NCBI GenBank assembly: GCA_018064825.1
Contig: JAGHUL010000118.1
Coordinates: 1-37,796, forward strand
Origin: Candidatus Colivicinus equi
GTDB lineage: Bacteria > Bacillota_I > Bacilli_A > Erysipelotrichales > Erysipelotrichaceae
DNA length: 37,796 nucleotides
Reading direction: 5' to 3'
Part shown: piece after piece, positions 13,071 through 33,879 of the stretch
Layout of the letters: each line of letters starts with the position of its first letter
Position numbering within the stretch: the first letter of the stretch is position 1
Made by a program: the position numbers and the translations under genes
The notes under the pieces: model-generated
What the model saw: the letters and a program-made list of their open reading frames with translations, nothing else
What the model was told of the DNA's origin: nothing
The model's database searches: none

Positions 13071-14252
13071 ATGTGGTCTACAAAAAAATATATTGATTTA
13101 GTAATTAATTGCTTATTGTTTCTTGTGGCAATCAATTTTTTGCATTATGGACAATTATTCCTCCCAGTAATATGTTTAATATTATTTATAGATAACAAAT
13201 TCAGTTTTAAAGTTAATAATTGGTTAACCTTCTTAATTTTGGTATTATTTGGAATATCCTTCTTTTTATTTTCGTTTAAACTAGGATTTTATAGCACCAT
13301 GGGATTTTGCTTTCCAATGGCATATTATATTGGAAGTAATATCTTAAAAAAAGATAAAAAAACCATAAAAAAAGTAGTGTATATTTTGGGATTTGGTATG
13401 GCGCTACACGTAGGCCTCAATATAATAGCAGATCTTAGTCTCGATGGTCTAAATATGATTAATTCAGTAAGCCATTACGATATATGGACACAGAGCAAAG
13501 TGCCAACTACATCAACAGCAGTCCTTACTGTTTTTGTGATATCGCTTTTATACTACTTGTTAATTCACGAAGACAGCAAAAAATATAGAATTTTAGGAAT
13601 CACGCTATTTGTTATTGTCATGATATATGATCTAGCGTTAGGAAGAAGAACGCCTATTATTATGGTGCTTATTTGCTTACTGGTATCGTTGTTTTTAGAT
13701 GCTTGTATTTTTAAGAACAAAAAAATTAATTTTAAACCAGCAATTGTTGCGTTTATTAGTTTTGGTTTGATAATTGTATTATTTGCACTTATTTATTTCC
13801 TAAATTTATTTGGCTTAAAAGAATATATAGATAATTTCGGCATTGTAAAAAAATTTGTTGAATATGGTTTAGATACAGGAAGACTAGACATATTTTTTAA
13901 GGCAATTAAATTAATGCCTGAACATTTATGGGGCGGTCAAGAAATACATGATATTCTGGGTATTCAAGTTCATGATTTGTGGATGGATACATATGACTAT
14001 GCAGGAATAATACCGTTTGCTTTATTGGTTACTCATTCAATAATGTTTGTTGTAACATTCGTAAAAGTTCTAAAAAGCAAGAGGGTATCTAATGATTTTA
14101 AATTGTTTATTTCATCGTTATTTTTCGCAATAACCCTGCAGTTATTCTTAGAACCGATTATGAGTGGATCATCATTATTCATAATTGACACAATAATAGT
14201 AGAGGCTTGCATAGAGAAAGTGATTATATATGGGAAAGAACATTACGAGTAG
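13071..14252 (+). CDS. wzy: O-antigen/capsule polymerase (Wzy-like) membrane protein
   Basis: A 393-residue protein with about 10-12 hydrophobic helices. The long loop between about residues 256 and 318 contains DTGRLDIFFKAIKLMPEHLWGG and HDLWMDTYDYAGIIPF, corresponding to the R- and H-containing periplasmic loop of Wzy/WaaL-fold polymerases; LGRRTPIIMVL is also typical. Wzy polymerises flipped Und-PP-linked repeat units at the outer face of the membrane. The assignment rests on topology, the loop motif and the flippase immediately downstream (23-base overlap), since sequence conservation in this family is low. A WaaL-type ligase is the alternative, but the Wzx partner favours Wzy. Confidence 0.75.
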   Translation: MWSTKKYIDLVINCLLFLVAINFLHYGQLFLPVICLILFIDNKFSFKVNNWLTFLILVLFGISFFLFSFKLGFYSTMGFCFPMAYYIGSNILKKDKKTIKKVVYILGFGMALHVGLNIIADLSLDGLNMINSVSHYDIWTQSKVPTTSTAVLTVFVISLLYYLLIHEDSKKYRILGITLFVIVMIYDLALGRRTPIIMVLICLLVSLFLDACIFKNKKINFKPAIVAFISFGLIIVLFALIYFLNLFGLKEYIDNFGIVKKFVEYGLDTGRLDIFFKAIKLMPEHLWGGQEIHDILGIQVHDLWMDTYDYAGIIPFALLVTHSIMFVVTFVKVLKSKRVSNDFKLFISSLFFAITLQLFLEPIMSGSSLFIIDTIIVEACIEKVIIYGKEHYE

Positions 14253-15504
14253 ATTTGCGAAAAATGCATCTTGGATGTTAACTGGGCGTATTATTCAAAT
14301 GGGCCTTGTTTTTGTTACAACCATGTTCATCGCAAGATATCTTGGCCCAACAGATTACGGTTCAATTCAACACACATATTCATATGTCGCTTTCTTTGCT
14401 CAAGTGTGTGCCTTGGGAATGAACGAAATAGTTGTAAAGGAGTTAATTGACAACAAAGAGAAAAATGATGAAATTTTAGGTACAATGATTGTCTTTAGGA
14501 TGGTAATAGCAATCGCATCAATCTTTGTGCTATATGTGCTAATAACAGCCATTAAAAAAAGCCCAATATTAGTATTATTAACAGTACTCCAATCATTATC
14601 ATTAATATTTCAAACATTTGATTGTATAACATATTTCTATCAGTCAAAGTTGATGGCACATAAAACTGCAAAAATAAATATTATAGCGTATACACTAACT
14701 TCAATATTTAGAGTCGTTTGTCTTCTTTTAAAAAGAGATGTTAAATGGTTTGCTTTTGCAGTTTCACTTGACTATATAGTAATTGCGGTTTTATTGCTCT
14801 ATGTATATTTTAGGGACGGGTATAAATTTAAGTTTTCTATAAACACAGGTAAGATGTTGCTTGCTAGAAGTTGGCACTATCTATTTGCTGATATTATGGT
14901 TGCTGTATATGGACAAGCGGATAAACTCTTGCTTGGTGGCTTATTAGATGATAAAGCGGTTGGATTATATTCGGCTGCTACTCAGTTATGTAACGCTTGG
15001 CCAATAGTGTTAATGTCAATTATAGACTCTGCTAGTCCCATAATAATTGAATTATTTAAAGAAGATAAACAAGCTTTTAAGAAAAAACTAAAACAATTAT
15101 ATGCTTCTATATTCTATATAGGTGTTTTTGTAGCTATAGCACTCACAATCCTATCTAACTTTATTATCACGACAATATATGGAGTTGATTATTCAGAAGC
15201 TTCTATATTGCTGAAAATATGCTCATGGAATACGATTTTCGCGTATTTAGGCGTATCTAGAACGATATGGATGCAATGTAACGACAAATTAAAATACGAA
15301 AAACAAATAGCTTTAGTAGGTGTGATAGCAAATGTTGTACTAAATTATTCTTTAATTAAAGTGTTTGGTGCCATAGGAGCAGCGATAGCACTAACATTAA
15401 CCCAATTTATTACTAATTTTGTAATGGTATACATATTAAAACCTACGAGGGAGAATGCAAAATTAATAATTGAAGGAATCATTTTAAAAGATGTTTTTGA
15501 ATAA
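14230..15504 (+). CDS. wzx: Wzx-type polysaccharide flippase (MATE/MOP superfamily)
   Basis: A 424-residue protein with about 12 membrane helices and the family N terminus NASWMLTGRIIQMGLVFVTTMFIARYLGPTDYG cut here as ASWMLTGR, FIARYLGPTDYG and SYVAFF. The central motif ADIMVAVYGQADKLLLGGLL matches the TM7 region of Wzx proteins. It flips Und-PP-linked repeat units across the membrane for the adjacent polymerase. It overlaps the wzy gene by 23 bases, a sign of co-translation, with a weak GAGAAAG SD. It would serve the PglC-primed glycan, since both lie in the same module; this link is inferred from position only. Confidence 0.92.
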   Translation: MGKNITSRFAKNASWMLTGRIIQMGLVFVTTMFIARYLGPTDYGSIQHTYSYVAFFAQVCALGMNEIVVKELIDNKEKNDEILGTMIVFRMVIAIASIFVLYVLITAIKKSPILVLLTVLQSLSLIFQTFDCITYFYQSKLMAHKTAKINIIAYTLTSIFRVVCLLLKRDVKWFAFAVSLDYIVIAVLLLYVYFRDGYKFKFSINTGKMLLARSWHYLFADIMVAVYGQADKLLLGGLLDDKAVGLYSAATQLCNAWPIVLMSIIDSASPIIIELFKEDKQAFKKKLKQLYASIFYIGVFVAIALTILSNFIITTIYGVDYSEASILLKICSWNTIFAYLGVSRTIWMQCNDKLKYEKQIALVGVIANVVLNYSLIKVFGAIGAAIALTLTQFITNFVMVYILKPTRENAKLIIEGIILKDVFE

Positions 15505-16284: not shown

Positions 16285-16950
16285 ATGAAAACATTAATCA
16301 TTATCCCAGCACATAACGAAGAAGCAAATATAGAAGCATTAATAAAAGATGTATGCAAATACAATTATGATTATCTAGTTATTAATGATTTTTCTAGTGA
16401 TTCAACAGCCGAGATATTGGATAGAAACAACTTTAATCATCTGGATTTACCTATCAATTTAGGAATCGCTGGAGTAACTAGAGTTGGTTTTAAATACGCT
16501 TATGATCATGGCTATGATTGTTGTATGTGTATTGATGGAGATGGTCAACATCAACCATCATATGTTGAACCAATATTAAAACAAATCGAAGCAGGCGATG
16601 ATTATGTAGTTGGTTCTAGATTTGTGCAAGAGAAGAAACCATTAAATGCTAGAATGTTAGGAAGTAGAATCATTTGTGGCTTAATCAAAATAAAAACCGG
16701 AAAAAAGGTTACAGATCCAACTAGTGGTATGAGAGCATTAGGAAGAAACGTAATCAAAGAGTTTAGTGAATCAATGAATTTCTATGCTGAACCAGATGCG
16801 CTATGTCATTTGATTCATACAGGATATAAAGTATCAGAAGTACAAGTTGAGATGAAAGATAGAGAGGGTGGCGTATCTTATTTCCATAGCCCATTTAAAT
16901 CTATCTATTATATGATTGCTGTTATGTTATCTATTTTATTTATTCAATAA
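16285..16950 (+). CDS. GT2 polyprenyl-phosphate sugar synthase (DPM1/ArnC-like)
   Basis: A 221-residue GT2 enzyme with the DPM1-like pattern: IIIPAHNEEANIEALI at the N terminus, VINDFSSDST, NLGIAGVTRVGFKYA, then the DGDGQH metal-binding motif and SGMRALGRN. Only one hydrophobic segment is present, at the extreme C terminus (about 205-221). This fits transfer of a sugar from NDP-sugar to undecaprenyl phosphate for use outside the membrane, or direct glycan transfer. The downstream DUF2304 protein is a standard neighbour of this subfamily. The mRNA is predicted leaderless. Confidence 0.85.
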   Translation: MKTLIIIPAHNEEANIEALIKDVCKYNYDYLVINDFSSDSTAEILDRNNFNHLDLPINLGIAGVTRVGFKYAYDHGYDCCMCIDGDGQHQPSYVEPILKQIEAGDDYVVGSRFVQEKKPLNARMLGSRIICGLIKIKTGKKVTDPTSGMRALGRNVIKEFSESMNFYAEPDALCHLIHTGYKVSEVQVEMKDREGGVSYFHSPFKSIYYMIAVMLSILFIQ

Positions 16951-16961
16951 GAGGCAAAGAT

Positions 16962-17312
16962 ATGAGTGTAGGATTAAGAATCGGATTACTAGTTGCATCA
17001 TTAATAGCATTTTTATTCGTATTAATATTTGTTGTTAAGAAGAAGCTAAACATTAAGTATTCAATTGTGTGGATGTTATGGTCTTTGTTGTCACTTATCA
17101 TGGCAATATTCCCAAAAACATTTTATGAACTTGCAAAAATTTTAGGAATTGAACTTCCTGTTAATGCTGTATTTTTAATTATGATTGGATTACTATATGG
17201 CTTAACTTTCTATGTATACTGCATGATCTCTAAACACAACGAAGAAATAGTAAAGTTAACATATGAGGTTGCAAATCTTCATAAAGAGTTAGATGATTTA
17301 AAGAAAAAATAA
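16962..17312 (+). CDS. DUF2304 small membrane protein
   Basis: A 116-residue protein with three hydrophobic helices (about 5-26, 33-50, 67-89), the conserved core YSIVWMLWSLLSLIMAIFP, and a C-terminal coiled coil rich in E, L and K (91-116). This is the DUF2304 family, regularly found directly after a DPM1-like GT2, as here (11 bases downstream, AGAGG SD). Probable role: membrane anchor or partner for the GT2, or part of a polyprenyl-phosphate-sugar flipping unit. That function is inferred from conserved neighbourhood rather than experiment. Confidence 0.88.
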   Translation: MSVGLRIGLLVASLIAFLFVLIFVVKKKLNIKYSIVWMLWSLLSLIMAIFPKTFYELAKILGIELPVNAVFLIMIGLLYGLTFYVYCMISKHNEEIVKLTYEVANLHKELDDLKKK

Positions 17313-17335: not shown

Positions 17336-19366
17336 ATGAGTAAGTTATCTATTCTAAAAGATAGAATAAAAGAGAACTTTATGAAGAATAAAGTTCTTTT
17401 AATTGTTTTTAGCGTTATTTGGATTGGCACTATTGTTTTAACCTTGTCGTTTTATGATTCATCTTTAGGTAAAGAACCAGTAGGTGGTCAAGACTATAGC
17501 CATACATATAGACTTTATAACAATAGAAAACTTGTTCAAACTATTCCGACAGTCGATGGAAGCAAAGCTATATCAATTAAGTACGCAACATATATTAGAA
17601 ATAACAAAGGCAATGTGTACGTAAAAGCGGTTGGATCGGATACAAATAATGTATATTTAGATACAAAAACAAATGTAAAGTCTATGCAAGACAATGCATA
17701 TGTAACATATTCGCTAGATAACGCTTTAGATTCAAATGTTGATAAACATATTATTGTAACATTAACATCGGATAGTAAATTTGAGTCGTGTGCTGGCGTG
17801 TATTACTCGTTTGATTCGTTCTTCGAAGATAGCGAGATGCTTTTTAATGAATACCAAATGACGGGCGAATCTGCTATTAAGTTTCTAATCGACAATGACA
17901 CCTATACTGCATTCTATAAAGGTGTAATAACAGCTGTCATTATTTCTTTCTCTTTATTGATATTGATTCTGTTATTATTAGATCCAAAAGAAGAAAAGAT
18001 GTTCACATGTATGATTCTTGTATTTGGACTTGTTTTTGCATGCATAATGTCACCAGGCGCAATACCTGATGAAAACAATCATTACGAAACTGCTTTACAA
18101 GTATCAAATCTTATGATGCATGGCTATGACAACAATAAAGACATAGATAAAGCGTATATTAATTATGATTCATTTGGAAGCTTCATAAATGTTAGCTATT
18201 CGTACAACAGGTTTATGAGAGACATGAATAAACCGCTCATACTAAAGGGCAAAATATATGAGATAGAAGAAAAAGATAAATATCTTTTTAGATATAACTA
18301 CGTTATCCAATTTATTCCACAAGCAGCAGGCATTTCTTTAGCTAGATTATTTGGTGTTAATATGTTAAGAACATATTATGCAGGAAGAGTATTTAATTTG
18401 TTGTTCTATGCGCTGTGCGTATATATCGCAATAAAAAATACCCCTGTACACAAAAGGTTGTTTGGAGTTCTTTCGATGCTTCCAATCTTCATTCAACAAG
18501 CAGCATCTATGTCTTATGACTGTTTCATATTTGGATTGACATTTATTTCAATATCATTCTTTATGAAATGGAAATTTGGTAGTGAACAAATTTCGAATAA
18601 AGATATCGCAATCGTATTCTTTGTTAACTTAGCCTTAGCTCCCGCAAAGATTGTATATGGATTCTTTGCATTATTGTTCTGGCTAGTACCAGCAGAAAAA
18701 TTTGGAAACAAGAAGAGAAAAACAATCTCGTTATTAATCATAACTTGTCCAACGATATTTATTATCTTGCAAAATATATGGTTTAGAATTCAACCATTTG
18801 TTGAAGACTTCTTAGATCAATTCAAAGTATATGCAGAAACTATTTTAAGAGAAGACTCTGGATATGAACACAATGGTGGCTACACATATTCAACAACTTT
18901 TATTCTTCAACATCCAATTCAAACAATATCAATAATCTTAAGAACAGTTAGATTCTGGTTATCAACTTGGTTCTATCAATCATTAGGAAAAGCGTTAGCT
19001 GGTGTAACATTGATTCTTCCAATGACATATGTTCGTATAATACTTATTTTCATTGGCTTAGTTGCTTTAAGAAAAGAAAACTATACTATGACATGGCCAG
19101 TTCGTGGCGCATTTTCTCTTGTTTGTTTAGGTGTAGCTTTCTTTATCATCTTAGGAATGCTTTATGGTTGGACACTTACAACTGATACTATGATTCAAGG
19201 AATACAAGGAAGATATTTCTGTCCATTACTTCCTTATTTCTTCTCGATGTTTAACAACAAGAAAATACAAATACCAGAAAAAATAGATAAATACGTTATT
19301 TACGCATACATCCTATTTATGTTTGAAATTATAGTGTATGTATTATCTTATACATTTGTGAATTAA
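17336..19366 (+). CDS. DUF2142 polytopic membrane protein with an extra N-terminal extracytoplasmic domain
   Basis: A 676-residue protein. A first membrane helix (about 19-39) is followed by a roughly 150-residue beta-rich extracytoplasmic domain (40-193), a second helix (196-215), then the DUF2142 core with about ten more helices. The family signature SPGAIPDENNHY (239-250) lies in the first core extracytoplasmic loop, where GT-C transferases carry catalytic acidic residues. A GT-C-like role using Und-P-sugar from the upstream GT2 is plausible but unproven. Residues 63-155 of the N-terminal domain resemble residues 58-148 of the Wzm permease. No SD; leaderless start predicted. Confidence 0.82.
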   Translation: MSKLSILKDRIKENFMKNKVLLIVFSVIWIGTIVLTLSFYDSSLGKEPVGGQDYSHTYRLYNNRKLVQTIPTVDGSKAISIKYATYIRNNKGNVYVKAVGSDTNNVYLDTKTNVKSMQDNAYVTYSLDNALDSNVDKHIIVTLTSDSKFESCAGVYYSFDSFFEDSEMLFNEYQMTGESAIKFLIDNDTYTAFYKGVITAVIISFSLLILILLLLDPKEEKMFTCMILVFGLVFACIMSPGAIPDENNHYETALQVSNLMMHGYDNNKDIDKAYINYDSFGSFINVSYSYNRFMRDMNKPLILKGKIYEIEEKDKYLFRYNYVIQFIPQAAGISLARLFGVNMLRTYYAGRVFNLLFYALCVYIAIKNTPVHKRLFGVLSMLPIFIQQAASMSYDCFIFGLTFISISFFMKWKFGSEQISNKDIAIVFFVNLALAPAKIVYGFFALLFWLVPAEKFGNKKRKTISLLIITCPTIFIILQNIWFRIQPFVEDFLDQFKVYAETILREDSGYEHNGGYTYSTTFILQHPIQTISIILRTVRFWLSTWFYQSLGKALAGVTLILPMTYVRIILIFIGLVALRKENYTMTWPVRGAFSLVCLGVAFFIILGMLYGWTLTTDTMIQGIQGRYFCPLLPYFFSMFNNKKIQIPEKIDKYVIYAYILFMFEIIVYVLSYTFVN

Positions 19367-19375
19367 TGGAGAATT

Positions 19376-20476
19376 ATGAAAGTAGTAATAGCAACATGTT
19401 TTCAATCTAATGAAGAGCGTGTAAATTCGATTGCGAATGTTTTTAGAAAAAGAGGCGATGAGCTTAAATTAATCACCACCAACTTTTTACATAAAACAAA
19501 AAAGCCAAGGGAAGATTATCCAAAAGGATATGATTTAGTGCCAACCATTAAATATAAGAAAAATCTTTCTTTAAGAAGAATGCGTTCGCATGAACAATTT
19601 GCTTCAGATACTTTCTTGTTGATTAGAGAGTATAAACCAGATTTGATATGGATAGAAGCGCCATGTAATAGCTTAATTAGCTATGCAAAAAAATATAAGA
19701 AAAAACATAAAGATGTAAAAATCATCATCGACATGATTGATATGTGGCCAGAATCACTTCCAATTAATATCAATAAGAATTCATTCCCATTTAATCTATG
19801 GAGAAACATTCGTTCAAAGAATATTGACTGTGCCGATGCTGTAGTAAGTGAATGTGATTTATATAAAGAAATACTAGAAAAAGAATATAAAGGGAATATT
19901 AATACTATACATTGGTGTAGAGATTCTCGTGCAATTCATTCAGAACTAGATTTACCTAGTGATGAATTATCTTTATGTTATATTGGGTCAATAAACAACA
20001 TCATCGATATAGATAAGATATGTGACATAATTAAATCTTCAAATAAGGATGTGGTTTTACACGTAATTGGGGTAGGCGAAAGTAAAGATAAACTAATTCA
20101 AGAAGCTAAGAAGATATGTAGAGTAATAGATTATGGCGAGACTTATGACGAAAAAATAAAAGAAGAAGTATTTAGTCAATGTCATGCTGGAATAAATATA
20201 TATAAAGATAATTTATATATTGGTTTAACAGTTAAATCAATTGATTATCTTCAATACGGTTTACCTATTATAAATAATATTAAAGGTGATACATGGAATT
20301 TAATTGAAGAAAATGATATTGGTGTTAACGTAACTGATAACTTTAAATTATATGAAAATAAATTAATCGAACTTAGAAAGAATTCTAAGAAGATATTTGA
20401 TGTATATGAAAATAACTTCACCAAGGAAGTATTTGACAAAAAATGCACAGATGTAATCAATGAGGTTTTAAAGTGA
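19376..20476 (+). CDS. GT4-like glycosyltransferase
   Basis: A 366-residue GT-B fold protein. The N-terminal half (MKVVIATCFQSNEERVNSIA) has MIDMWPESLPI, which resembles the D-x-W-P(E/D) segment of WbpH/WbuB-like GT4 enzymes. The C-terminal half has LCYIGSINNIIDIDKI, then GINIYKDNLYIGLTVKSIDYLQYGLPII, a divergent donor site in which the usual EX7E is not clear (K/D residues occupy it). GGAG SD lies 5-8 bases before the ATG. The stop overlaps the next start (GTG inside the last codons), so it is coupled to the rhamnosyltransferase-like gene. Confidence 0.8.
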   Translation: MKVVIATCFQSNEERVNSIANVFRKRGDELKLITTNFLHKTKKPREDYPKGYDLVPTIKYKKNLSLRRMRSHEQFASDTFLLIREYKPDLIWIEAPCNSLISYAKKYKKKHKDVKIIIDMIDMWPESLPININKNSFPFNLWRNIRSKNIDCADAVVSECDLYKEILEKEYKGNINTIHWCRDSRAIHSELDLPSDELSLCYIGSINNIIDIDKICDIIKSSNKDVVLHVIGVGESKDKLIQEAKKICRVIDYGETYDEKIKEEVFSQCHAGINIYKDNLYIGLTVKSIDYLQYGLPIINNIKGDTWNLIEENDIGVNVTDNFKLYENKLIELRKNSKKIFDVYENNFTKEVFDKKCTDVINEVLK

Positions 20477-21384
20477 AACTAATTGTATTGATGTCGACAT
20501 ATAATGGTGAAAAATATCTAAGACAACAATTAGATTCTTTAGTAAATCAAAAACTAACTCCAAATAAAATCTTAATTAGAGATGATGGCTCAACAGATAA
20601 GACATTAGATATTATTAGTGAATATGAACAAAGATATTCTTTTATTGAGCACTATCAAGGTCAAAATAAAGGACCCGCAAAATCATTCTTTGAATTGATT
20701 AATAAAAGTGAAGATGCGGATTATTATGCATTATGCGATCAAGATGATGTGTGGTTTGAGGATAAGCTTTCTTCGGCTATCGAACAATTAGAAAAAGAAG
20801 ATAGCACAACCCCACTATTATATTGTTGTAGATATACATTAACAGATGAAAATCTAAATCCAATAGAAAATAACATTTCACGTTTATATACATACACCGA
20901 CTTTGCGCATTCATTGTTATATCAAACATCTCCTGGATGCACATTCGTTTTTAATCATGAAGCTAGAAAACAAATAATAAAATACGACATTGAGAAAAAC
21001 TATTGCATAATTCATGATTCGATTATTCATAAAATAGTAACAATGTTTGGAAAGATGATACTAGATAATAATAGTCATCTATATTACCGTCAACATGGTG
21101 ACAATGCTATTGGTTTATCAGGAAACAAGGTTAAAGCGTTCAAAAACAGAATAGAACATTTTACTAGTGGTAAAAGTAAGAACACTAGAAGCAATATGGC
21201 AAAATCATTATTAAAAGTGTTCGGTGATGAATGTTCAAAACAGGATAAAGAATTAATGGAAATAGTTGCGAATTATCAAGAAAACAAAGCTTATAAAAAA
21301 GAATTATTATCAAATCCATTGTTCAAAGTTGATTCTATTAATTACTTATTCTACAAGTTGCTGGTGTTAGTAAACTACATCTAA
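20473..21384 (+). CDS. GT2 glycosyltransferase, rhamnosyltransferase-like
   Basis: A 303-residue GT-A enzyme. LIVLMSTYNGEKYLRQQLDSL, RDDGSTDKT, NKGPAKSF and the CDQDDVW metal-binding motif are the standard run of RgpB/WbbL-like rhamnosyl- or glucosyltransferases that build rhamnan-type wall glycans. HDSIIHK and the later YRQHGDNAIG segment match the acceptor side. The presence of rmlACBD 4 kb downstream makes dTDP-L-rhamnose a reasonable donor, by inference. Start GTG at 20473 overlaps the previous TGA and has a GAGG SD 8 bases upstream. The ABC exporter follows directly. Confidence 0.88.
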   Translation: MKLIVLMSTYNGEKYLRQQLDSLVNQKLTPNKILIRDDGSTDKTLDIISEYEQRYSFIEHYQGQNKGPAKSFFELINKSEDADYYALCDQDDVWFEDKLSSAIEQLEKEDSTTPLLYCCRYTLTDENLNPIENNISRLYTYTDFAHSLLYQTSPGCTFVFNHEARKQIIKYDIEKNYCIIHDSIIHKIVTMFGKMILDNNSHLYYRQHGDNAIGLSGNKVKAFKNRIEHFTSGKSKNTRSNMAKSLLKVFGDECSKQDKELMEIVANYQENKAYKKELLSNPLFKVDSINYLFYKLLVLVNYI

Positions 21385-21406: not shown

Positions 21407-22825
21407 ATGAATAAAGAAAAACTTAAAAAGATATTTACTTCTATTTTTGCGACATATTGTGCTTTAGTCGTATCTTTTTATTTTTTGGCTGGAGATCAAA
21501 TAAGATACAGACAATCTCGTAGCGAGATTCAAATGTTAAATCCAAACCAATCTACTGAAGAAATAGTAGCTGGTAGAACTGTTATACAGAATTTTGTGAA
21601 CTTGGTTGACAGATTAAAAAGTGTATCATTTAAAATCACGACTTTTTATAGAACTAATGTTGGTACATTACATGTAGAAGTAAGCAGTGGAACAAAACTT
21701 CTAATGAAAAAAGACATAGATATATCTAAATTAGAAGAAGGTGAAGTAATTACACTAGAAAGCGATAAATACATCACTGGTTTAACTGGAAAATTAGTTA
21801 CACTAACCTTCACCTCAACAAGCGATAAAAACGAGGGTATCGCAATATTAACTAACGGTAGTGTAGCTCGTGGAAGCTATATTGATAATGGTGAGCATAT
21901 AAGTGGTAATATCTGTTTTTCAACGACAGGTCAAGAATATATATTCACGGGTCAATGGTATTGGTATATAGTAGGCGGATTTGGAATCATGCTTGTAGCA
22001 ATTTTATATGTTTCATATAAATGCTTTATCAATAAGAAAAAGAATTATTTAATTATCGCAATCAATGTAATTGATAGATATCAATTCTTGATTCATCAAT
22101 TGGTATTAAGAGATTTTAAAACAAAATATAAAAGATCGGTATTGGGCGTTTTGTGGAGCTTCTTAAATCCATTGCTAACGATGACAATTCAATATTTTGT
22201 ATTTTCTAATTTCTTTAAATCAGATATTGCGAATTATCCGGTATATTTATTGACCGGTGTTATTAGTTATAGTTTCTTTAGTGAAGCGACTTCAATGTGT
22301 TTGACTTCAATATCTCATAACGATAGGTTAATCACTAAAGTATATGTTCCAAAATATATATTCCCATTATCAAGAACAATTTCTTCATCAATCAACTTGA
22401 TTATCTCAATTATTCCGTTGTTGCTAGTAGTACTATTAACTGGACTTACATTAAAACAGTCGGCGATATTATCTTTGTTCTTCTTTTTGTGTTTAATAAT
22501 ATTTGTGCTCGGCTTTGGCATGATTCTTGCGACATTGATGGTGTTCTTTAGAGATATTCAATTCTTATGGAGTGTAATCTCTATGATTTGGATGTATGCA
22601 ACGCCAATCTTCTATCCTGCATCAATCATTTCGCCAAAGTATAGTTTTATTCAAACTTTTAATCCTTTATATCAATGTATTAAAAACATTCGTATTTGTT
22701 TAATAGACGGCATATCTCCAGAACCTAGAGCTTACGCTTATACTTTTGCAATGGCATTCTTCTGGTTATTACTTGGTTCTTTAATCTTCAAGAAAGAACA
22801 GGATAAATTTACTTTATATTTGTAG
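21407..22825 (+). CDS. wzm: ABC polysaccharide exporter permease (Wzm) with fused N-terminal extracytoplasmic domain
   Basis: A 472-residue permease, far longer than the usual 260-270. Residues about 228-472 are a complete ABC-2 type Wzm/TagG domain: LVLRDFKTKYKRSVLGVLWSFLNPLL at its start, split here as VLRDFKTKYKRS and LGVLWSFLNPLL, then six helices and NPLYQCIKNIR. Upstream lie a helix (8-28), a beta-rich 155-residue segment (29-185) and a second helix (186-205). This topology places the extra segment outside the membrane while keeping the Wzm N terminus inside. The segment resembles the DUF2142 N-terminal domain. The protein exports a lipid-linked polymer with the Wzt ATPase 8 bases downstream. 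No SD; leaderless start predicted. Confidence 0.9.
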   Translation: MNKEKLKKIFTSIFATYCALVVSFYFLAGDQIRYRQSRSEIQMLNPNQSTEEIVAGRTVIQNFVNLVDRLKSVSFKITTFYRTNVGTLHVEVSSGTKLLMKKDIDISKLEEGEVITLESDKYITGLTGKLVTLTFTSTSDKNEGIAILTNGSVARGSYIDNGEHISGNICFSTTGQEYIFTGQWYWYIVGGFGIMLVAILYVSYKCFINKKKNYLIIAINVIDRYQFLIHQLVLRDFKTKYKRSVLGVLWSFLNPLLTMTIQYFVFSNFFKSDIANYPVYLLTGVISYSFFSEATSMCLTSISHNDRLITKVYVPKYIFPLSRTISSSINLIISIIPLLLVVLLTGLTLKQSAILSLFFFLCLIIFVLGFGMILATLMVFFRDIQFLWSVISMIWMYATPIFYPASIISPKYSFIQTFNPLYQCIKNIRICLIDGISPEPRAYAYTFAMAFFWLLLGSLIFKKEQDKFTLYL

Positions 22826-22832
22826 GTGTTAT

Positions 22833-23582
22833 ATGACAGAAAAGATGATAGAAGTTCAAAATGTTTCTATGAAATTTAGAATGTCGGATGAACCTTTAAA
22901 TTCATTAAAGGAAATTTTTACGTTGAAGTTAAAGGGCAAACTAAACTACAAAGAATTCATGGCTCTAGATGATGTGTCTTTTGTGGTAGAAAAAGGTGAA
23001 ACATTAGGTCTAATTGGTTCTAATGGTGCTGGTAAATCAACGACCCTAAAAGTTATATCAGGAATATTGAAACCTACAAAAGGAAAAGTAATTGCAAGAG
23101 GCAATATTGTTCCAATGCTAGAGCTAGGCGCTGGTTTTGATTTGGAACTTACTGGTAAAGAAAACATATATTTGAATGGCGCTATTTTGGGCTATTCAAA
23201 GGAATATCTAGAATCAAAATATGATGAAATTGTTGAATTCTCTGAACTAGGCGATTTCATTGATATGGCAATTAGAAACTATTCATCTGGTATGATGGCT
23301 AGATTGGCGTTCTCAATAGCATCAGTAGTTCAACCAGAAATACTAATTGTCGATGAAATATTAGCAGTAGGTGATGTAGCTTTCCAAAAGAAATCAAGAG
23401 CTAGAATGATGGAACTTATGAATGGCGGTGCAACAGTGTTATTTGTATCTCATGACATAGATCAAATTAAAGAGATGTGTGATAAAGTTATCTGGCTTGA
23501 TCACGGTAAAGTTGTTATGTTTGGAGATACCGAAAAAGTATGTAAAGCATATATCGAATCTCAAGAAAAAGGCAAAAAATAA
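22833..23582 (+). CDS. wzt: ABC polysaccharide exporter ATPase (Wzt/TagH type), no C-terminal carbohydrate-binding domain
   Basis: A 249-residue nucleotide-binding protein. Walker A GSNGAGKST (62-70), a Q-loop region NIVPMLELGAGFD (91-103) typical of Wzt/TagH, signature YSSGMMARL (150-158), Walker B ILIVDEIL (170-177) and the switch histidine in LFVSHD. The protein ends soon after the NBD (KVVMFGDTEKVCKAYIESQEKGKK region), so it has neither the Wzt C-terminal cap-binding domain of E. coli O9a type nor the TagH extracellular extension. It energises export with the Wzm upstream. A weak AGGTG SD precedes the start, and the stop overlaps the next ATG (TAATG). Confidence 0.95.
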   Translation: MTEKMIEVQNVSMKFRMSDEPLNSLKEIFTLKLKGKLNYKEFMALDDVSFVVEKGETLGLIGSNGAGKSTTLKVISGILKPTKGKVIARGNIVPMLELGAGFDLELTGKENIYLNGAILGYSKEYLESKYDEIVEFSELGDFIDMAIRNYSSGMMARLAFSIASVVQPEILIVDEILAVGDVAFQKKSRARMMELMNGGATVLFVSHDIDQIKEMCDKVIWLDHGKVVMFGDTEKVCKAYIESQEKGKK

Positions 23583-25353: not shown

Positions 25354-26235
25354 ATGAAAGGTATTATATTAGCTGGTGGAGCTGGCACTAGATTATATCC
25401 ACTTACAATGGTCACATCAAAACAGTTGTTACCTGTTTATGATAAGCCGATGGTTTATTATCCATTAAGCACATTGATGCTTGCAGGTATCAAAGATATT
25501 CTTGTAATATCAACACCTACTGATACACCAAGGTTTGAAGAACTGTTAGGTGATGGCTCTCAATTTGGTGTCAAGTTATCTTATAAAGTACAACCATCTC
25601 CTGATGGTTTAGCTCAAGCATTTATTATTGGTGAAGAGTTTATTGGTGATGATGCTTGTGCAATGGTATTAGGCGACAACATTTTCTATGGCAATGGTTT
25701 TTCACAACTACTAAATAATGCTGTTAATAATGCCGAAAAAGGTAAAGCAACTATTTTTGGATATCATGTAAACGACCCAGAGAGATTTGGCATTGTCGAA
25801 TTTGATAAAAGAGGCAGAGTCTTATCTGTTGAAGAAAAACCTCAACATCCAAAATCTAATTACTGTATCACTGGCTTATACTTCTATCCAAAAGGTGTTG
25901 CGAAAATGGCAAAACAAGTTAGACCTTCTGCTAGAGGGGAATTAGAAATTACAACACTAAACGATATGTATCTAAAGAAAAAGAAATTAAGTGTTGAATT
26001 ATTAGGCAGTGGCTATGCATGGTTAGATACAGGAACCATGGATTCACTAGTAGAAGCAGCTAACTATGTTCAATTGATATCTAAGAGACAAAACATTGTT
26101 ATTTCTGCTCCAGAAGAAATCGCATATAAATATAAATGGATTTCTAAAAAGAAATTATTAGAAAGTGCAGCTCGTTATGGAAAATCTCCGTACGGCGCTC
26201 ATCTAAAAGCTGTAGCTGAAGGGAAGGCTCAATAA
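25354..26235 (+). CDS. rmlA: glucose-1-phosphate thymidylyltransferase
   Basis: A 293-residue enzyme that makes dTDP-glucose from Glc-1-P and dTTP, the first step of dTDP-L-rhamnose synthesis. The nucleotide-binding loop [11 protein letters not shown] (8-18), [16 protein letters not shown], the metal/substrate motif [26 protein letters not shown] and WLDTGT are all intact. The length is standard. SD GAGGAAAG precedes the ATG. It is separated by only 20 bases from the upstream GT, so it may share that transcript. Confidence 0.98.
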
Positions 26236-26804
26236 TGAAGAAGATTGAGACTCCTATTGAAGGCGTATATATCATTGAGTCAGAATGCTTTGGTGACAAT
26301 CGTGGCTGGTTTATGGAAACATATAACGAAGCCAAGTTTAAAGATATGGGTATAGACAATGTCTTCGTTCAAGACAACATGTCATTCTCTGCTCAAAAAG
26401 GAACACTAAGAGGTCTTCATTACCAAAGAGATCCATATTCTCAAGCAAAACTTGTTAGGTGCACAAAGGGTACAGTTATTGATGTAGCTGTAGATTTGAG
26501 AAAAGGGTCACCTACATACGGGAGATGGACAAGTTGCGAATTAAGTGCTGAAAACAAAAGAATGTTCTTTATTCCTAGAGGAATGGCACATGGTTTCTTA
26601 ACATTAACTGATGATGTTGAATTCCAATATAAATGTGATAACCTTTATAACAAAGAAAGTGAAGGCGGTATAAGATATGACGATCCAACAATCAATGTTG
26701 ACTGGGGATCATTGTTGAATGGAATTGAACCGGTGTTATCTGAAAAAGATAAGAATGCATCAACATTACAAGAATGTAACGCAAATTTCGAATATAAAAA
26801 GTAA
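26235..26804 (+). CDS. rmlC: dTDP-4-dehydrorhamnose 3,5-epimerase
   Basis: A 189-residue cupin epimerase acting on dTDP-4-keto-6-deoxyglucose. RGLHYQ carries the catalytic histidine; DVAVDLRKGSPTYGRW, FIPRGMAHGF and YKCDNLY are the conserved barrel strands, and YDDPTINVDWG is the C-terminal block. The ATG overlaps the rmlA stop (TAATG), with an AAGG SD. An intrinsic terminator follows at 26828-26853, so rmlC closes a transcription unit even though rmlB and rmlD continue the pathway. Confidence 0.98.
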   Translation: MKKIETPIEGVYIIESECFGDNRGWFMETYNEAKFKDMGIDNVFVQDNMSFSAQKGTLRGLHYQRDPYSQAKLVRCTKGTVIDVAVDLRKGSPTYGRWTSCELSAENKRMFFIPRGMAHGFLTLTDDVEFQYKCDNLYNKESEGGIRYDDPTINVDWGSLLNGIEPVLSEKDKNASTLQECNANFEYKK

Positions 26805-26827
26805 TACCCAAACTAAACAAACAAACG

Positions 26828-26853
26828 AGAGGTAGAGATACCTCTTTATTTTT
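26828..26853 (+). terminator. intrinsic terminator after rmlC
   Basis: A 7-bp stem AGAGGTA/TACCTCT (26828-26834 and 26839-26845) closes a GAGA (GNRA) tetraloop and is followed by TTATTTTT. It is the clearest terminator in the window. The promoter for rmlB starts at its last T. Confidence 0.85.
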
Positions 26854-26861
26854 GATAAAAT
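26853..26861 (+). promoter_or_regulatory. extended -10 promoter of rmlB
   Basis: TGATAAAAT, identical to the box before wzm. Here, however, it lies 32 bases before the ATG at 26894, leaving a 25-base leader with a GGAGG SD at about 26879-26883. It shows the same promoter type driving a conventional, led mRNA. Confidence 0.55.
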
Positions 26862-26893
26862 TAAATAAACCAATCAATTGGAGGCTTTTAGTT

Positions 26894-27913
26894 ATGAAAA
26901 TACTAGTTACAGGTGCTGCAGGCTTTATTGGATCAAACTTTGTTTATTATGAATTAGACAAACATCCCGAAGATCAAATAGTAGCTTTAGATTTATTAAC
27001 TTATGCAGGAAATCTTAAGAATTTAGATGGATGTAAAGATAATCCTAATTTTAAATTCGTAAAGATGGACATTCGTGATAGAGAAAACATCAACAAACTA
27101 TTTGAAGAAGAAAAGTTTGATATCGTTGTCAATTTTGCGGCTGAATCTCATGTAGATAGATCAATTGAAGATCCTGAAGTATTTTTAAGAACCAACATTA
27201 TTGGTACTGAAGTATTAATGGATGCATCACTAAAATATGGTGTTAAGAGATACCATCAAGTATCCACTGATGAAGTATATGGTGATTTACCATTAGAAGC
27301 TACTGATTCATTCTTTACTGAAACAACGCCACTTCATACAAGTTCACCATATAGCGCATCAAAGGCTTCAGCAGATTTATTAGTTATGGCATACCATAGA
27401 ACATTTGGATTAAATATGTCTATCACAAGATGTTCTAACAACTACGGTCCATATCAATTCCCAGAGAAGTTGATTCCGTTGATGATTAATAATGCAAGAC
27501 ACGATAAGAAATTGCCAGTATATGGCGAAGGTTTAAATGTTAGAGACTGGTTACATGTTTGTGACCATTGTGCTGGTATAGATTTAGTTATGAGAAATGG
27601 TAGAAATGGAGAAGTCTATAATATTGGTGGTCATAACGAAAGACATAACATTGAAGTTGTAAAAACAATTATTAAGGCATTAGGTAAAACTGATGATTTA
27701 ATAACATACGTTACAGATCGTAAAGGTCACGATTTACGTTATGCAATTGATCCAACTAAGATTGAAACTGAACTAGGATGGAAGCCTAAGTATAATTTTG
27801 AAACAGGTATCAAAGAAACTATTGAATGGTATATGAATAATCAAGAATGGATGGATGATGTAACATCTGGCGATTATTTAACATACTATGAAAAGATGTA
27901 TTCAAAGAAATAA
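26894..27913 (+). CDS. rmlB: dTDP-glucose 4,6-dehydratase
   Basis: A 339-residue SDR enzyme converting dTDP-glucose to dTDP-4-keto-6-deoxyglucose. TGAAGFIGSNFV is the NAD loop, NFAAESHVDRSI and STDEVYGDL carry the active-site T-D-E, SPYSASKA is the YxxxK motif, and CSNNYGPYQFPEKLIP and DWLHVCDHC are family blocks. I placed the start at the ATG at 26894 with a GGAGG SD. The frame is open upstream to a TTG at 26852, but that lies before the predicted transcription start. It opens a new transcription unit with rmlD and probably the genes to 33070. Confidence 0.98.
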   Translation: MKILVTGAAGFIGSNFVYYELDKHPEDQIVALDLLTYAGNLKNLDGCKDNPNFKFVKMDIRDRENINKLFEEEKFDIVVNFAAESHVDRSIEDPEVFLRTNIIGTEVLMDASLKYGVKRYHQVSTDEVYGDLPLEATDSFFTETTPLHTSSPYSASKASADLLVMAYHRTFGLNMSITRCSNNYGPYQFPEKLIPLMINNARHDKKLPVYGEGLNVRDWLHVCDHCAGIDLVMRNGRNGEVYNIGGHNERHNIEVVKTIIKALGKTDDLITYVTDRKGHDLRYAIDPTKIETELGWKPKYNFETGIKETIEWYMNNQEWMDDVTSGDYLTYYEKMYSKK

Positions 27914-27936
27914 GAAAATATACAAGGAGTTTTGAA

Positions 27937-28797
27937 ATGAAGATTTTGGTTGTAGGCGCAAGTGGTCAATTAGGGAAAACAGTCGTAAATGAAATTAAGA
28001 GTAGAAATCACGAATGCATATCATGTGATATTGCAGGCGATGTTGATTTTGTTATGGATGCAACTAACTATGATGAAGTAATGTTCAAAGTTGAAAAGAT
28101 TAATCCTGATGCTGTTATTAACTGCGCTGCTTGGACAGCAGTAGATGCTGCCGAAGATGAAAACAACCAACCAAAAGTATTTGCTTTAAATACAATTATT
28201 CCAAAAACTTTAGCCGATGTTTGTGCAAAGATAAATTGCAAGTTAATGCAAATATCTACAGACTATGTATTTGATGGAACAGGCGAAAGGCCTTGGCAGC
28301 CAGACGATAAAAACTTCGGCCCATTATCTATATATGGGATGACTAAATTAAAAGGTGAAAAATTCGTTTCACAAATAGAGAAGTATTTTATTGTTAGAAT
28401 CGCATGGTTATTTGGTGGACCAATATCTTTTGTAAACACAATGCTAAAAGTTGGGCAAACTCATGATGAAGTTAGAGTAGTAAATGACCAAATAGGAACA
28501 CCAACTTATTCAAAAGATTTAGCTAGATTATTAGTGGATATGATTGAAACAGATAAGTACGGATATTATCATGCAACAAATGAAGGCGGTTATATCTCTT
28601 GGTATGATTTCTGTGTTGAAATATATAAACAAGCTGGATATACAACAAAAGTTATTCCTGTTACAACAGCTGAATATGGTGAAAGTAAAGCAAAACGTCC
28701 GTTTAATTCACGTTTAGATAAATCTAAATTAGTCGAAAACGGTTTTACTCCTCTTCCTGATTGGAAAGACGCACTAAGAAGGTATTTAAGTGAATAA
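27937..28797 (+). CDS. rmlD: dTDP-4-dehydrorhamnose reductase
   Basis: A 286-residue SDR reductase for the last step to dTDP-L-rhamnose. The NADPH loop GASGQLGKTV, NCAAWTAVDAAED, STDYVFDG, YGMTKLKGE (YxxxK) and RIAWLFGG are present, as is the C-terminal RPFNSRLDKSKL block. AAGGAG SD lies 8 bases before the ATG. Its last codons overlap the GTG start of the WbaP-like gene by 8 bases, tying rhamnose supply to the second initiating enzyme. Confidence 0.98.
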   Translation: MKILVVGASGQLGKTVVNEIKSRNHECISCDIAGDVDFVMDATNYDEVMFKVEKINPDAVINCAAWTAVDAAEDENNQPKVFALNTIIPKTLADVCAKINCKLMQISTDYVFDGTGERPWQPDDKNFGPLSIYGMTKLKGEKFVSQIEKYFIVRIAWLFGGPISFVNTMLKVGQTHDEVRVVNDQIGTPTYSKDLARLLVDMIETDKYGYYHATNEGGYISWYDFCVEIYKQAGYTTKVIPVTTAEYGESKAKRPFNSRLDKSKLVENGFTPLPDWKDALRRYLSE

Positions 28798-33162: not shown

Positions 33163-33879
33163 ATGAAAAAGTTATATAAGAGAATTTATCATTTATTTAA
33201 AGATAAGAAAAAACGTTATTTGTATCTAATTCTAATTATTTTGCCTTTTTTGATTGCGATTGGTGTAGCAGGTTTTTTTGGCTATAAAAACGTCAAAGCA
33301 TTACTTAATACTAGTAACGATGTTGCAGAAATAGCTAACGAATACAAAATAGAAAATCCTGAATATATTCTTAGAGATAACGCTACACAATTACAATTAG
33401 AATTATTTTCAGAATTAAAGAGCATGTACGAAGGTTCGGCTGAAGAATCTACAGATGTAGATATTGCTACAGCAGTATGTAAGAATTTCGTAGCTGATTT
33501 CTACACTTGGTCAAATAAGGTTGGGCAATATGATGTCGGTGGTATGTATTATGTATTTGAACCGCAAAGAAAAAACATTTATACACAAGCTAGAGACACT
33601 TTCTATAATCGTTTGAGCGATTACATTTCTGAGTACGGTGCTGAAAACTTGTTAGAAGTTGAATCCATTGTTTCAGCGACAGGAAACGAATCTAGCGATG
33701 AGTATATATCTAAGAATCCTGAAACTGGAGTAGAAGATTCACACACTGATGTATATAATGTTAATGTTTCATGGACTTATAAAGCAAACGATAAGTTTGC
33801 GCCTAGTAAATATGCAACTAGTATGAGCTTTGTTGTCATAGAAAATGGTGGAAGATACGAGATAGTTGAGGCACACTAA
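33163..33879 (+). CDS. membrane-anchored extracytoplasmic protein of unknown function
   Basis: I do not recognise this 238-residue protein. It has a lysine-rich cytoplasmic N terminus, one membrane helix (about 24-43), and an outer domain. VCKNFVADFYTWSNK and the final strand MSFVVIENGGRYEIVEAH hint at an NTF2-like or Mce-associated-like alpha+beta fold, but this is weak. It lies directly upstream of the LCP gene (TAATG overlap), so it may assist glycan ligation. The start is placed at ATG 33163 behind a weak AAAGAGAG SD; an in-frame TTG at 33130 would overlap the -10 box TAAAAT. Confidence 0.6.
   Translation: MKKLYKRIYHLFKDKKKRYLYLILIILPFLIAIGVAGFFGYKNVKALLNTSNDVAEIANEYKIENPEYILRDNATQLQLELFSELKSMYEGSAEESTDVDIATAVCKNFVADFYTWSNKVGQYDVGGMYYVFEPQRKNIYTQARDTFYNRLSDYISEYGAENLLEVESIVSATGNESSDEYISKNPETGVEDSHTDVYNVNVSWTYKANDKFAPSKYATSMSFVVIENGGRYEIVEAH

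Follow-up and report, generated by a model that had tools for sequence, protein, structure and literature searches.

We analysed a stretch of 37,796 nucleotides from Candidatus Colivicinus equi (Erysipelotrichaceae; assembly GCA_018064825.1, contig JAGHUL010000118.1, positions 1 to 37,796), hereafter the window, which according to its list of open reading frames (ORFs) and a Pfam scan of its proteins is a surface-polysaccharide locus. Two of its membrane proteins, the DUF2142 protein (17336-19366, + strand, 676 amino acids (aa); ORF list and Pfam) and the ABC exporter permease Wzm (21407-22825, + strand, 472 aa; ORF list), carry one homologous domain, which spans residues 44-187 of the former and 30-178 of the latter and belongs to a family that has had no name so far.

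The relationship is visible within the window's own genome. At expectation values (E) up to 1, a search with the DUF2142 segment returned only itself and Wzm (E 8.4e-4), and a search with Wzm residues 1-208 returned only itself and the DUF2142 protein (E 1.05e-3). Separately built profiles of the two families matched in hhalign with E 1.6e-17, a probability of 98.9 and a score of 116 when the flanking helices were included. Transmembrane (TM) helices as the source of this match were ruled out, since profiles of the outer segments only (8 DUF2142 rows, 12 Wzm rows) still scored 99.2, against a mean of 12.8 (standard deviation 2.1, maximum 20.7) for 200 column-shuffled Wzm profiles, and 14.3 and 12.8 for two reversed profiles. 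Single sequences also found one another across genomes: the window's Wzm as sole query matched DUF2142 domains in other genomes (6.4e-8 in G183; G and L numbers are our handles for genomes and loci), and 31 of 96 single DUF2142 by Wzm pairs reached E<=10 at a database size of 1e6, the best at 4.9e-10. A chance or convergent likeness of two unrelated beta domains, to which the 16 % identity of the two window copies (24/152) might be thought to point, is contradicted by the shuffle and reversal controls, by the matches across genomes and by the strand register given below, and we hold it to be exceedingly improbable.

An earlier note, made from the window sequence, had proposed this likeness for 17453..17914, i.e., residues 40-193 of the DUF2142 ORF, and for the Wzm protein starting at 21407; both segments lie where it placed them, at the N termini of otherwise unrelated membrane proteins of one locus, and the profile-profile comparison that it suggested is the one reported above. 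The residues it had aligned, 63-155 of DUF2142 and 58-148 of Wzm, fall inside the domain, which is larger: in DUF2142 it occupies about 17465..17896 (+), as delimited by hmmsearch with profile A4, which contains the window's own DUF2142 row (residues 44-190), by the AlphaFold strands and by hhalign to the Wzm domain, and in Wzm it occupies 21494..21940 (+; profile search, AlphaFold and Foldseek). Both proteins of the window contain the proposed pattern S-x-K-x-x-T-(Y/F)-x-R-x-N-x-G, of which R-x-N-x-G alone, a loop motif at R88-G92 of DUF2142 (17597..17611, +) and R82-G86 of Wzm (21650..21664, +), is widely kept when the 64 aligned domains are compared. The complete motif occurs in 22/35 Wzm and 12/15 DUF2142 domains, in 2/3 copies encoded by split genes and in 0/10 stand-alone copies (both described below), the stand-alone copy of L068 retaining its R and G. 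A glutamine earlier in the domain is invariant in all 35 Wzm domains and kept in 8/10 stand-alone copies. The third motif had been paired two residues off register, as the 64-row alignment sets DUF2142 IIVTLTSDS against Wzm VTLTFTSTS.

Structure prediction led to the same fold in both proteins. The AlphaFold2 model of Wzm 1-208 (29 Wzm rows) has a predicted local distance difference test (pLDDT) score of 92.5 and shows eleven strands flanked by two helices, and that of the whole DUF2142 protein (11 DUF2142 rows) scores 76.4, with pLDDT 71-92 in the blocks of the domain and strands between residues 46 and 186. The two alignments were independent, with no Wzm row in the DUF2142 alignment and none vice versa, and the folds were compared by strand register through the 64-row sequence alignment. 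From residue 58 onwards each of the ten Wzm strands coincides at least in part with one of DUF2142; over 121 residues the strand assignments agree to 88 %, and to at most 66 % when the register is shifted by four or more. In both models the domain is an all-beta jelly roll of about 145 residues, a fold of the kind found in carbohydrate-binding modules (CBMs) in the CAZy sense, and the shared beta-sandwich proposed earlier is thus borne out by prediction. Foldseek searches of the PDB gave both models 15 chains in common among their top 50 (counted by eye, several being chains of one protein). The neighbours include esterase CBMs, the lectin-like domain of Cwp84 and CBM6- and CBM36-like jelly rolls, to which the domain nevertheless has no sequence or family match. 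Since capsid and PHR jelly rolls are among the neighbours too, the fold is not diagnostic, and it allows a sugar-binding role without proving it. The same neighbours, and the frequency of jelly rolls as scaffolds, could suit a ligand-free structural cap that folds, orients or gates the membrane part; we think this unlikely, given that the domain also exists free-standing and, next to DUF2142 genes that lack it, as a gene in its own right, and that 27 of 30 Wzt-linked Wzm proteins (the best 30 of 53 listed matches) do without it.

One membrane helix flanks the domain on each side in both AlphaFold models, as had been claimed. In DUF2142 these are residues 19-39 (17390..17452, +; also seen in hydropathy) and 188-215 (17897..17980, +), and in Wzm residues 3-32 (21413..21502, +) and 185-207 (21959..22027, +). 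The DUF2142 protein continues with its PF09913 core, predicted to be GT-C-like (18017..19234, +; Pfam 5e-41; residues 228-633, 141.2 bits against a cut-off of 30.1), in which a P-D-E-x-x-H motif (P244, D245, E246, H249) is invariant in 11/11 aligned DUF2142 proteins; by topology reasoning we take this to be the first outer loop of the polytopic core, with the acidic motif expected of a GT-C enzyme. Wzm continues with an ABC2_membrane core (PF01061; 22091..22699, +; Pfam 1.5e-17) and is followed at 22833 by an ABC ATPase (Wzt), which together mark it as a polysaccharide permease of the Wzm/ABC2 kind. Two features would put both segments on the outer face of the membrane: the many lysines at the N terminus of Wzm, by the positive-inside rule, and the position of the P-D-E-x-x-H loop after the third DUF2142 helix, by GT-C topology. 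Against the PDB, the full DUF2142 model (pLDDT 76) matched EmbA/B/C and chains of the translocon and oligosaccharyltransferase A (OST-A), the latter presumably STT3A, weakly (E 0.016-0.07, TM-score <=0.25, root mean square deviation (rmsd) about 19-27).

The domain is real but uncommon. Of 195 genomes of the window's family, 8 (counting that of the window) have a DUF2142 carrier, and each of the eight also has a Wzm carrier; Wzm-domain matches were found in 14 of 195, a count that includes three weak single matches (G064, G153 and G193; E 0.0017-0.0095) that were not accepted as members. At the level of the phylum, profile A4 found the domain in 4 of 392 genomes, again with the window's own, and in the Clostridia-side phylum profile A10 found it in 6 of 398, including the centre G560, itself picked for carrying the domain. 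A scan of named genomes yielded 29 loci, among them those of Agathobaculum butyriciproducens DSM 100391 and Oscillibacter valericigenes; the Wzm proteins of Oscillospiraceae and Agathobaculum carry the domain. Most carriers found are Wzm, DUF2142 or the products of genes adjoining them. PF09913 itself passed its cut-off in 4 of 249 Clostridia-side genomes; among six such loci the domain lies in the protein at one (G787) and beside it at another (G670), and the stretches around the remaining four (L144-L147) gave no domain match better than E 0.3.

The search for the same domain on other proteins, also suggested by the earlier note, brought up stand-alone genes, split genes and one further membrane protein. 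Stand-alone copies, membrane-anchored proteins of 173-179 aa with a single helix, were seen next to wzm at 11 of 16 loci in the window's family (two of the 11 encode identical proteins), and adjoin a 303-aa GT2 wherever that GT2 is in view (L060:8459-8992, L061:8476-8994, L064:8463-8996, L066:8470-8997, L067:30-563, L068:640-1176, L069:8470-8997, L071:8475-8993, L074:7188-7718, L077:3468-3986). Their usual place is between the 303-aa GT2 and wzm, where the window has none; they are likewise missing from L059, L062, L065 and L075. A seven-helix 329-aa gene occupies that place at L046:2030-3019 (the same as L065). The hhalign match between DUF2142 and stand-alone profiles drops from a score of 52.3 to 32.3, and from a probability of 93.7 to 54.6, without the TM helices. 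At L057:8560-9282 (G322), L058:7758-8324 (G383) and L126:9602-10138 (G670) the domain has a gene of its own, with one or two TM helices in the product, immediately next to a DUF2142 gene where no copy of it was found, and this alternation of split and fused forms indicates a module that works with DUF2142. In G881 the domain is present on Wzm and, more weakly (E 4.7e-6), at the N terminus of a nine-helix protein of 751 aa encoded near the domain-bearing Wzm (L128:15155-17407), which has no Pfam family over the cut-off and a DUF983 match below it. An 877-aa protein with 14 helices in G707 (L149:6156-8789) begins with the same TM-outer-TM arrangement and matches marginally (E 0.003); it is perhaps a distant member on another GT-C family.

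How the copies are related was assessed in a quick tree of the 64 domains, in which the long rows are unsure. Thirteen DUF2142 copies form one group, with a support of 90 in the Shimodaira-Hasegawa-like approximate likelihood ratio test (SH-aLRT); the distant L129 and L130 are placed outside it, with long branches. The ten stand-alone copies share a branch (starred 97) with eleven Wzm domains of Erysipelotrichaceae, and a derivation from DUF2142 was rejected for these Erysipelotrichaceae copies.

These data bear on a role in docking or dimerisation, by which the domains of Wzm, DUF2142 and the stand-alone protein would pair on the outer face into a complex coupling export and decoration. Both carriers and the stand-alone copy lie in one conserved gene block, and the stand-alone copies group with Wzm domains yet none of the ten has R-x-N-x-G complete, as a partner subunit might. 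There is also a weak excess correlation of domain-domain divergence (partial r 0.31 across 11 loci, with 154 of 5000 permutations as high), and the available part of PMC9445017 describes carbohydrate-binding domains of Wzt as jelly-roll dimers. The genomes argue the other way. Among the 20 genomes behind 20 of the 29 loci, the eight of the window's family all have both carriers, but all 12 outside the Erysipelotrichaceae, A. butyriciproducens among them, have matches only in Wzm-size open frames (480-579 aa, one to three copies, judged by frame length); G962 and G787 have a DUF2142 carrier and G670 a split gene with no second match in the genome. Carriers that occur singly in other lineages imply that neither the DUF2142 nor the Wzm carrier requires the other. 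The Erysipelotrichaceae DUF2142 and Wzm domains, moreover, form separate groups in the tree and not matched pairs. Docking between exporter and outer-face transferase, as the earlier note had it, is weakened by these findings, and we consider it a doubtful explanation, even if the stand-alone copies do support some partner role.

The homology, predicted fold, topology and co-location of the two domains were established by computation. As the exit of the exporter and the acceptor site of the transferase face the same polymer, the simplest role for a domain common to both is contact with that polymer, and we are evenly disposed towards reading it as a CBM-like module that contacts one glycan on the outer face of both the Wzm exporter and the DUF2142 transferase. 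From what is known of these families, Wzm/Wzt would export a backbone, and the DUF2142 protein, as a GT-C-type transferase, would attach a side chain to it outside. On Wzm the domain would hold or guide the chain emerging from the channel; the copy on DUF2142 would offer that chain, as acceptor, to the active site in the outer loop. The ligand of the domain would be the exported glycan. The lactococcal WpsJ/WpsI/WpsH and RgpC/RgpD system, as far as the available text describes it, works along such lines: a rhamnan backbone is exported by the ABC transporter RgpCD (PMC12599335), and a second chain, the polysaccharide pellicle (PSP), is begun on undecaprenyl phosphate (C55-P) by the GT2-like WpsA and a small membrane protein; once WpsA/WpsB and other enzymes have built it and it has been flipped, the GT-C protein WpsJ links it to rhamnan on the outside (PMC10821137). 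Section 3.2 of PMC12599335 has wpsJ inferred from DUF2142-containing proteins where similarity fails. The window holds matching parts in one block, namely GT2, DUF2304, Wzx, DUF2142, Wzm and Wzt; the difference is that the available text on WpsJ/RgpCD mentions no domain common to exporter and transferase.

Divergence and the partner ATPase offer two further points. Across 11 loci the mean p-distance is 0.60 for the Wzm domain and 0.25 for the Wzm core; faster divergence of the domain is what a variable glycan as partner would lead one to expect. The ORF after a domain-bearing Wzm, i.e., Wzt, encodes 241-262 aa in all 33 complete cases among 35 loci, and 249 aa in the window, which leaves no space for a C-terminal CBM of the Wzt type; O9a-type Wzt, with its C-terminal CBM, is longer than this. 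Long Wzt proteins occur with 0/33 domain-bearing and 12/27 ordinary Wzm proteins (Fisher 1.2e-5), the latter being the best 30 of 53 listed matches, with lengths taken from stop to stop, after L151 and L152 (domain-bearing, among the 33) and L159 were set apart. As the rows are related and were chosen by similarity, this contrast is only a hint, and the idea that the Wzt CBM and the Wzm domain strictly exclude each other is no more than suggested by it. The Wzm of L159 (G587; 466 aa, stop to stop) has an outer N-terminal segment of similar size with no acceptable match (E 3.8), and adjoins a CBM-length Wzt of 442 aa. The E. coli O9a Wzt module resembles the present domain in being a jelly roll on a polysaccharide ABC exporter, but is C-terminal on the cytoplasmic ATPase, where it reads the chain cap, according to the available part of PMC9445017; here the domain is on the permease, predicted to lie on the outer face, and Wzt is short.

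Several findings weigh against glycan contact. No carbohydrate-binding residue or ligand has been identified for the domain, and no Pfam or NCBIfam family over the cut-off, CBM families included, covers it, in agreement with the earlier note, which knew of no named family for it; sub-cut-off matches touching it (DUF6594, eIF-5_eIF-2B, PHR, DUF928 and others) were taken as chance, and three profiles and one protein searched by sequence against the PDB gave nothing below E 0.19. The best fold match of both models is a virus capsid jelly roll (8h2i_bG; E 9.1e-7 for Wzm, 2.9e-4 for DUF2142), with PHR and capsid jelly rolls ranking alongside CBMs, and at E<=0.001 the DUF2142 model has a single PDB match to the nine of the Wzm model. 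Fast evolution also fits weak constraint, and in the DUF2142 protein the gap between domain and core is smaller (p-distance 0.58 vs 0.47; 11 loci). Short Wzt proteins are common without the domain, as 15 of the 27 ordinary Wzm proteins have one. The 751-aa carrier at L128 has no known function, and the genes around the G962 carrier (L129) show no match to window proteins. Finally, parts of the DUF2142 core are modelled poorly (pLDDT below 50 at 495-522, 539-549 and 609-625), so the model gives no reliable placement of the domain with respect to the active site.

A contact role could be extended to a glycan relay, in which lectin-like domains on the exporter mouth, the decorating transferase and a free-standing anchored protein would catch the nascent polymer at the exit and pass it along the outer face unreleased. 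We think such a relay rather unlikely; if true, it would be a device coupling export to decoration in Gram-positive polysaccharide assembly, with an exit-side reader in place of the cytoplasmic cap reader of Wzt. Alternatively, the domain could act like a co-polymerase, measuring or sensing the chain at the exit and so controlling its length or termination. The topology of WpsH-type proteins does resemble that of the TM-domain(-TM) proteins beside DUF2142, but the available text of PMC10821137 names the polymerase as WpsH in one place and as WpsI in another, and we regard this explanation as quite improbable.

Jelly rolls on membrane proteins of glycan assembly are already known. In the mycobacterial arabinosyltransferases EmbA/B/C a jelly roll near the N terminus sits between TM1 and TM2, and Pfam includes a family for the Emb N-terminal domain; our Pfam scans found no such domain, and no sequence similarity of the DUF2142 protein to Emb was detected. 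The likeness is that of a GT-C-type transferase, in DUF2142 a predicted one, acting on a wall polysaccharide and bearing jelly-roll outer domains, the DUF2142 model aligning over 570-783 columns, weakly (E 0.016-0.07, probability 0.44-0.69, rmsd about 25), and Emb chains are far longer (1034-1087 aa). The C-terminal domain of EmbC is described as a lectin-like CBM in the available part of PMC3044687. Excerpts of the DUF2142 literature describe no N-terminal outer domain, and titles and opening lines of abstracts on outer domains of Wzm hold no such description; a named family may exist elsewhere. As far as can be judged from sequence, the family shared by exporter and transferase appears to be new, with the glycan as its candidate ligand. 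Through it, a Wzm permease bears on its outer face a domain that resembles carbohydrate modules. How separately exported and built wall polysaccharides of Gram-positive bacteria, such as rhamnan plus PSP or the group A carbohydrate, meet outside the membrane is an open question, on which a domain common to exporter and transferase gives a concrete and testable handle. It may also mark decorating transferases and their partner genes in gut Firmicutes, e.g., Agathobaculum and Oscillibacter.

The closest named relative of the window is L059, from an Erysipelotrichaceae metagenome assembly, with 84 % identity in DUF2142 and 85 % in Wzm. A Wzx flippase and a Wzy-like protein (13071-15504; Wzy match below the cut-off) share the locus with Wzm/Wzt (21407-23582), a combination that fits the expectation for a two-chain polymer joined outside. 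A GT2 (16285..16950, +; Pfam PF00535) may be of the polyprenyl-phosphate-sugar synthase kind and an analogue of lactococcal WpsA / GacI, and the small DUF2304 membrane protein after it (16962..17312, +; Pfam PF10066, 3.7e-23) we take to be an analogue of WpsB / GacJ. Between DUF2142 and Wzm lie a glycosyltransferase-like gene of 366 aa (19376..20476, +; Pfam GT1/GT4 matches below the cut-off), present at this place in the 13 loci of the window's family that show both genes, and the 303-aa GT2 (20473..21384, +; Pfam). The 249-aa Wzt ATPase (22833..23582, +; ORF list and Pfam) is encoded after Wzm, and dTDP-rhamnose genes lie at 25354-28797 (Rml naming by eye). At L060:3119-4351 and in eight other loci, with L075 probably a tenth, DUF2304 and DUF2142 are separated by a gene that the window and L059 lack; its product of about 409 aa (VVPGSFVPYNDTVT) has no TM helices and looks glycosyltransferase-like by eye. 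At 33879-36446 the window also encodes an LCP-like protein with C-terminal repeated F-x-G-W-Y units, as seen by eye.
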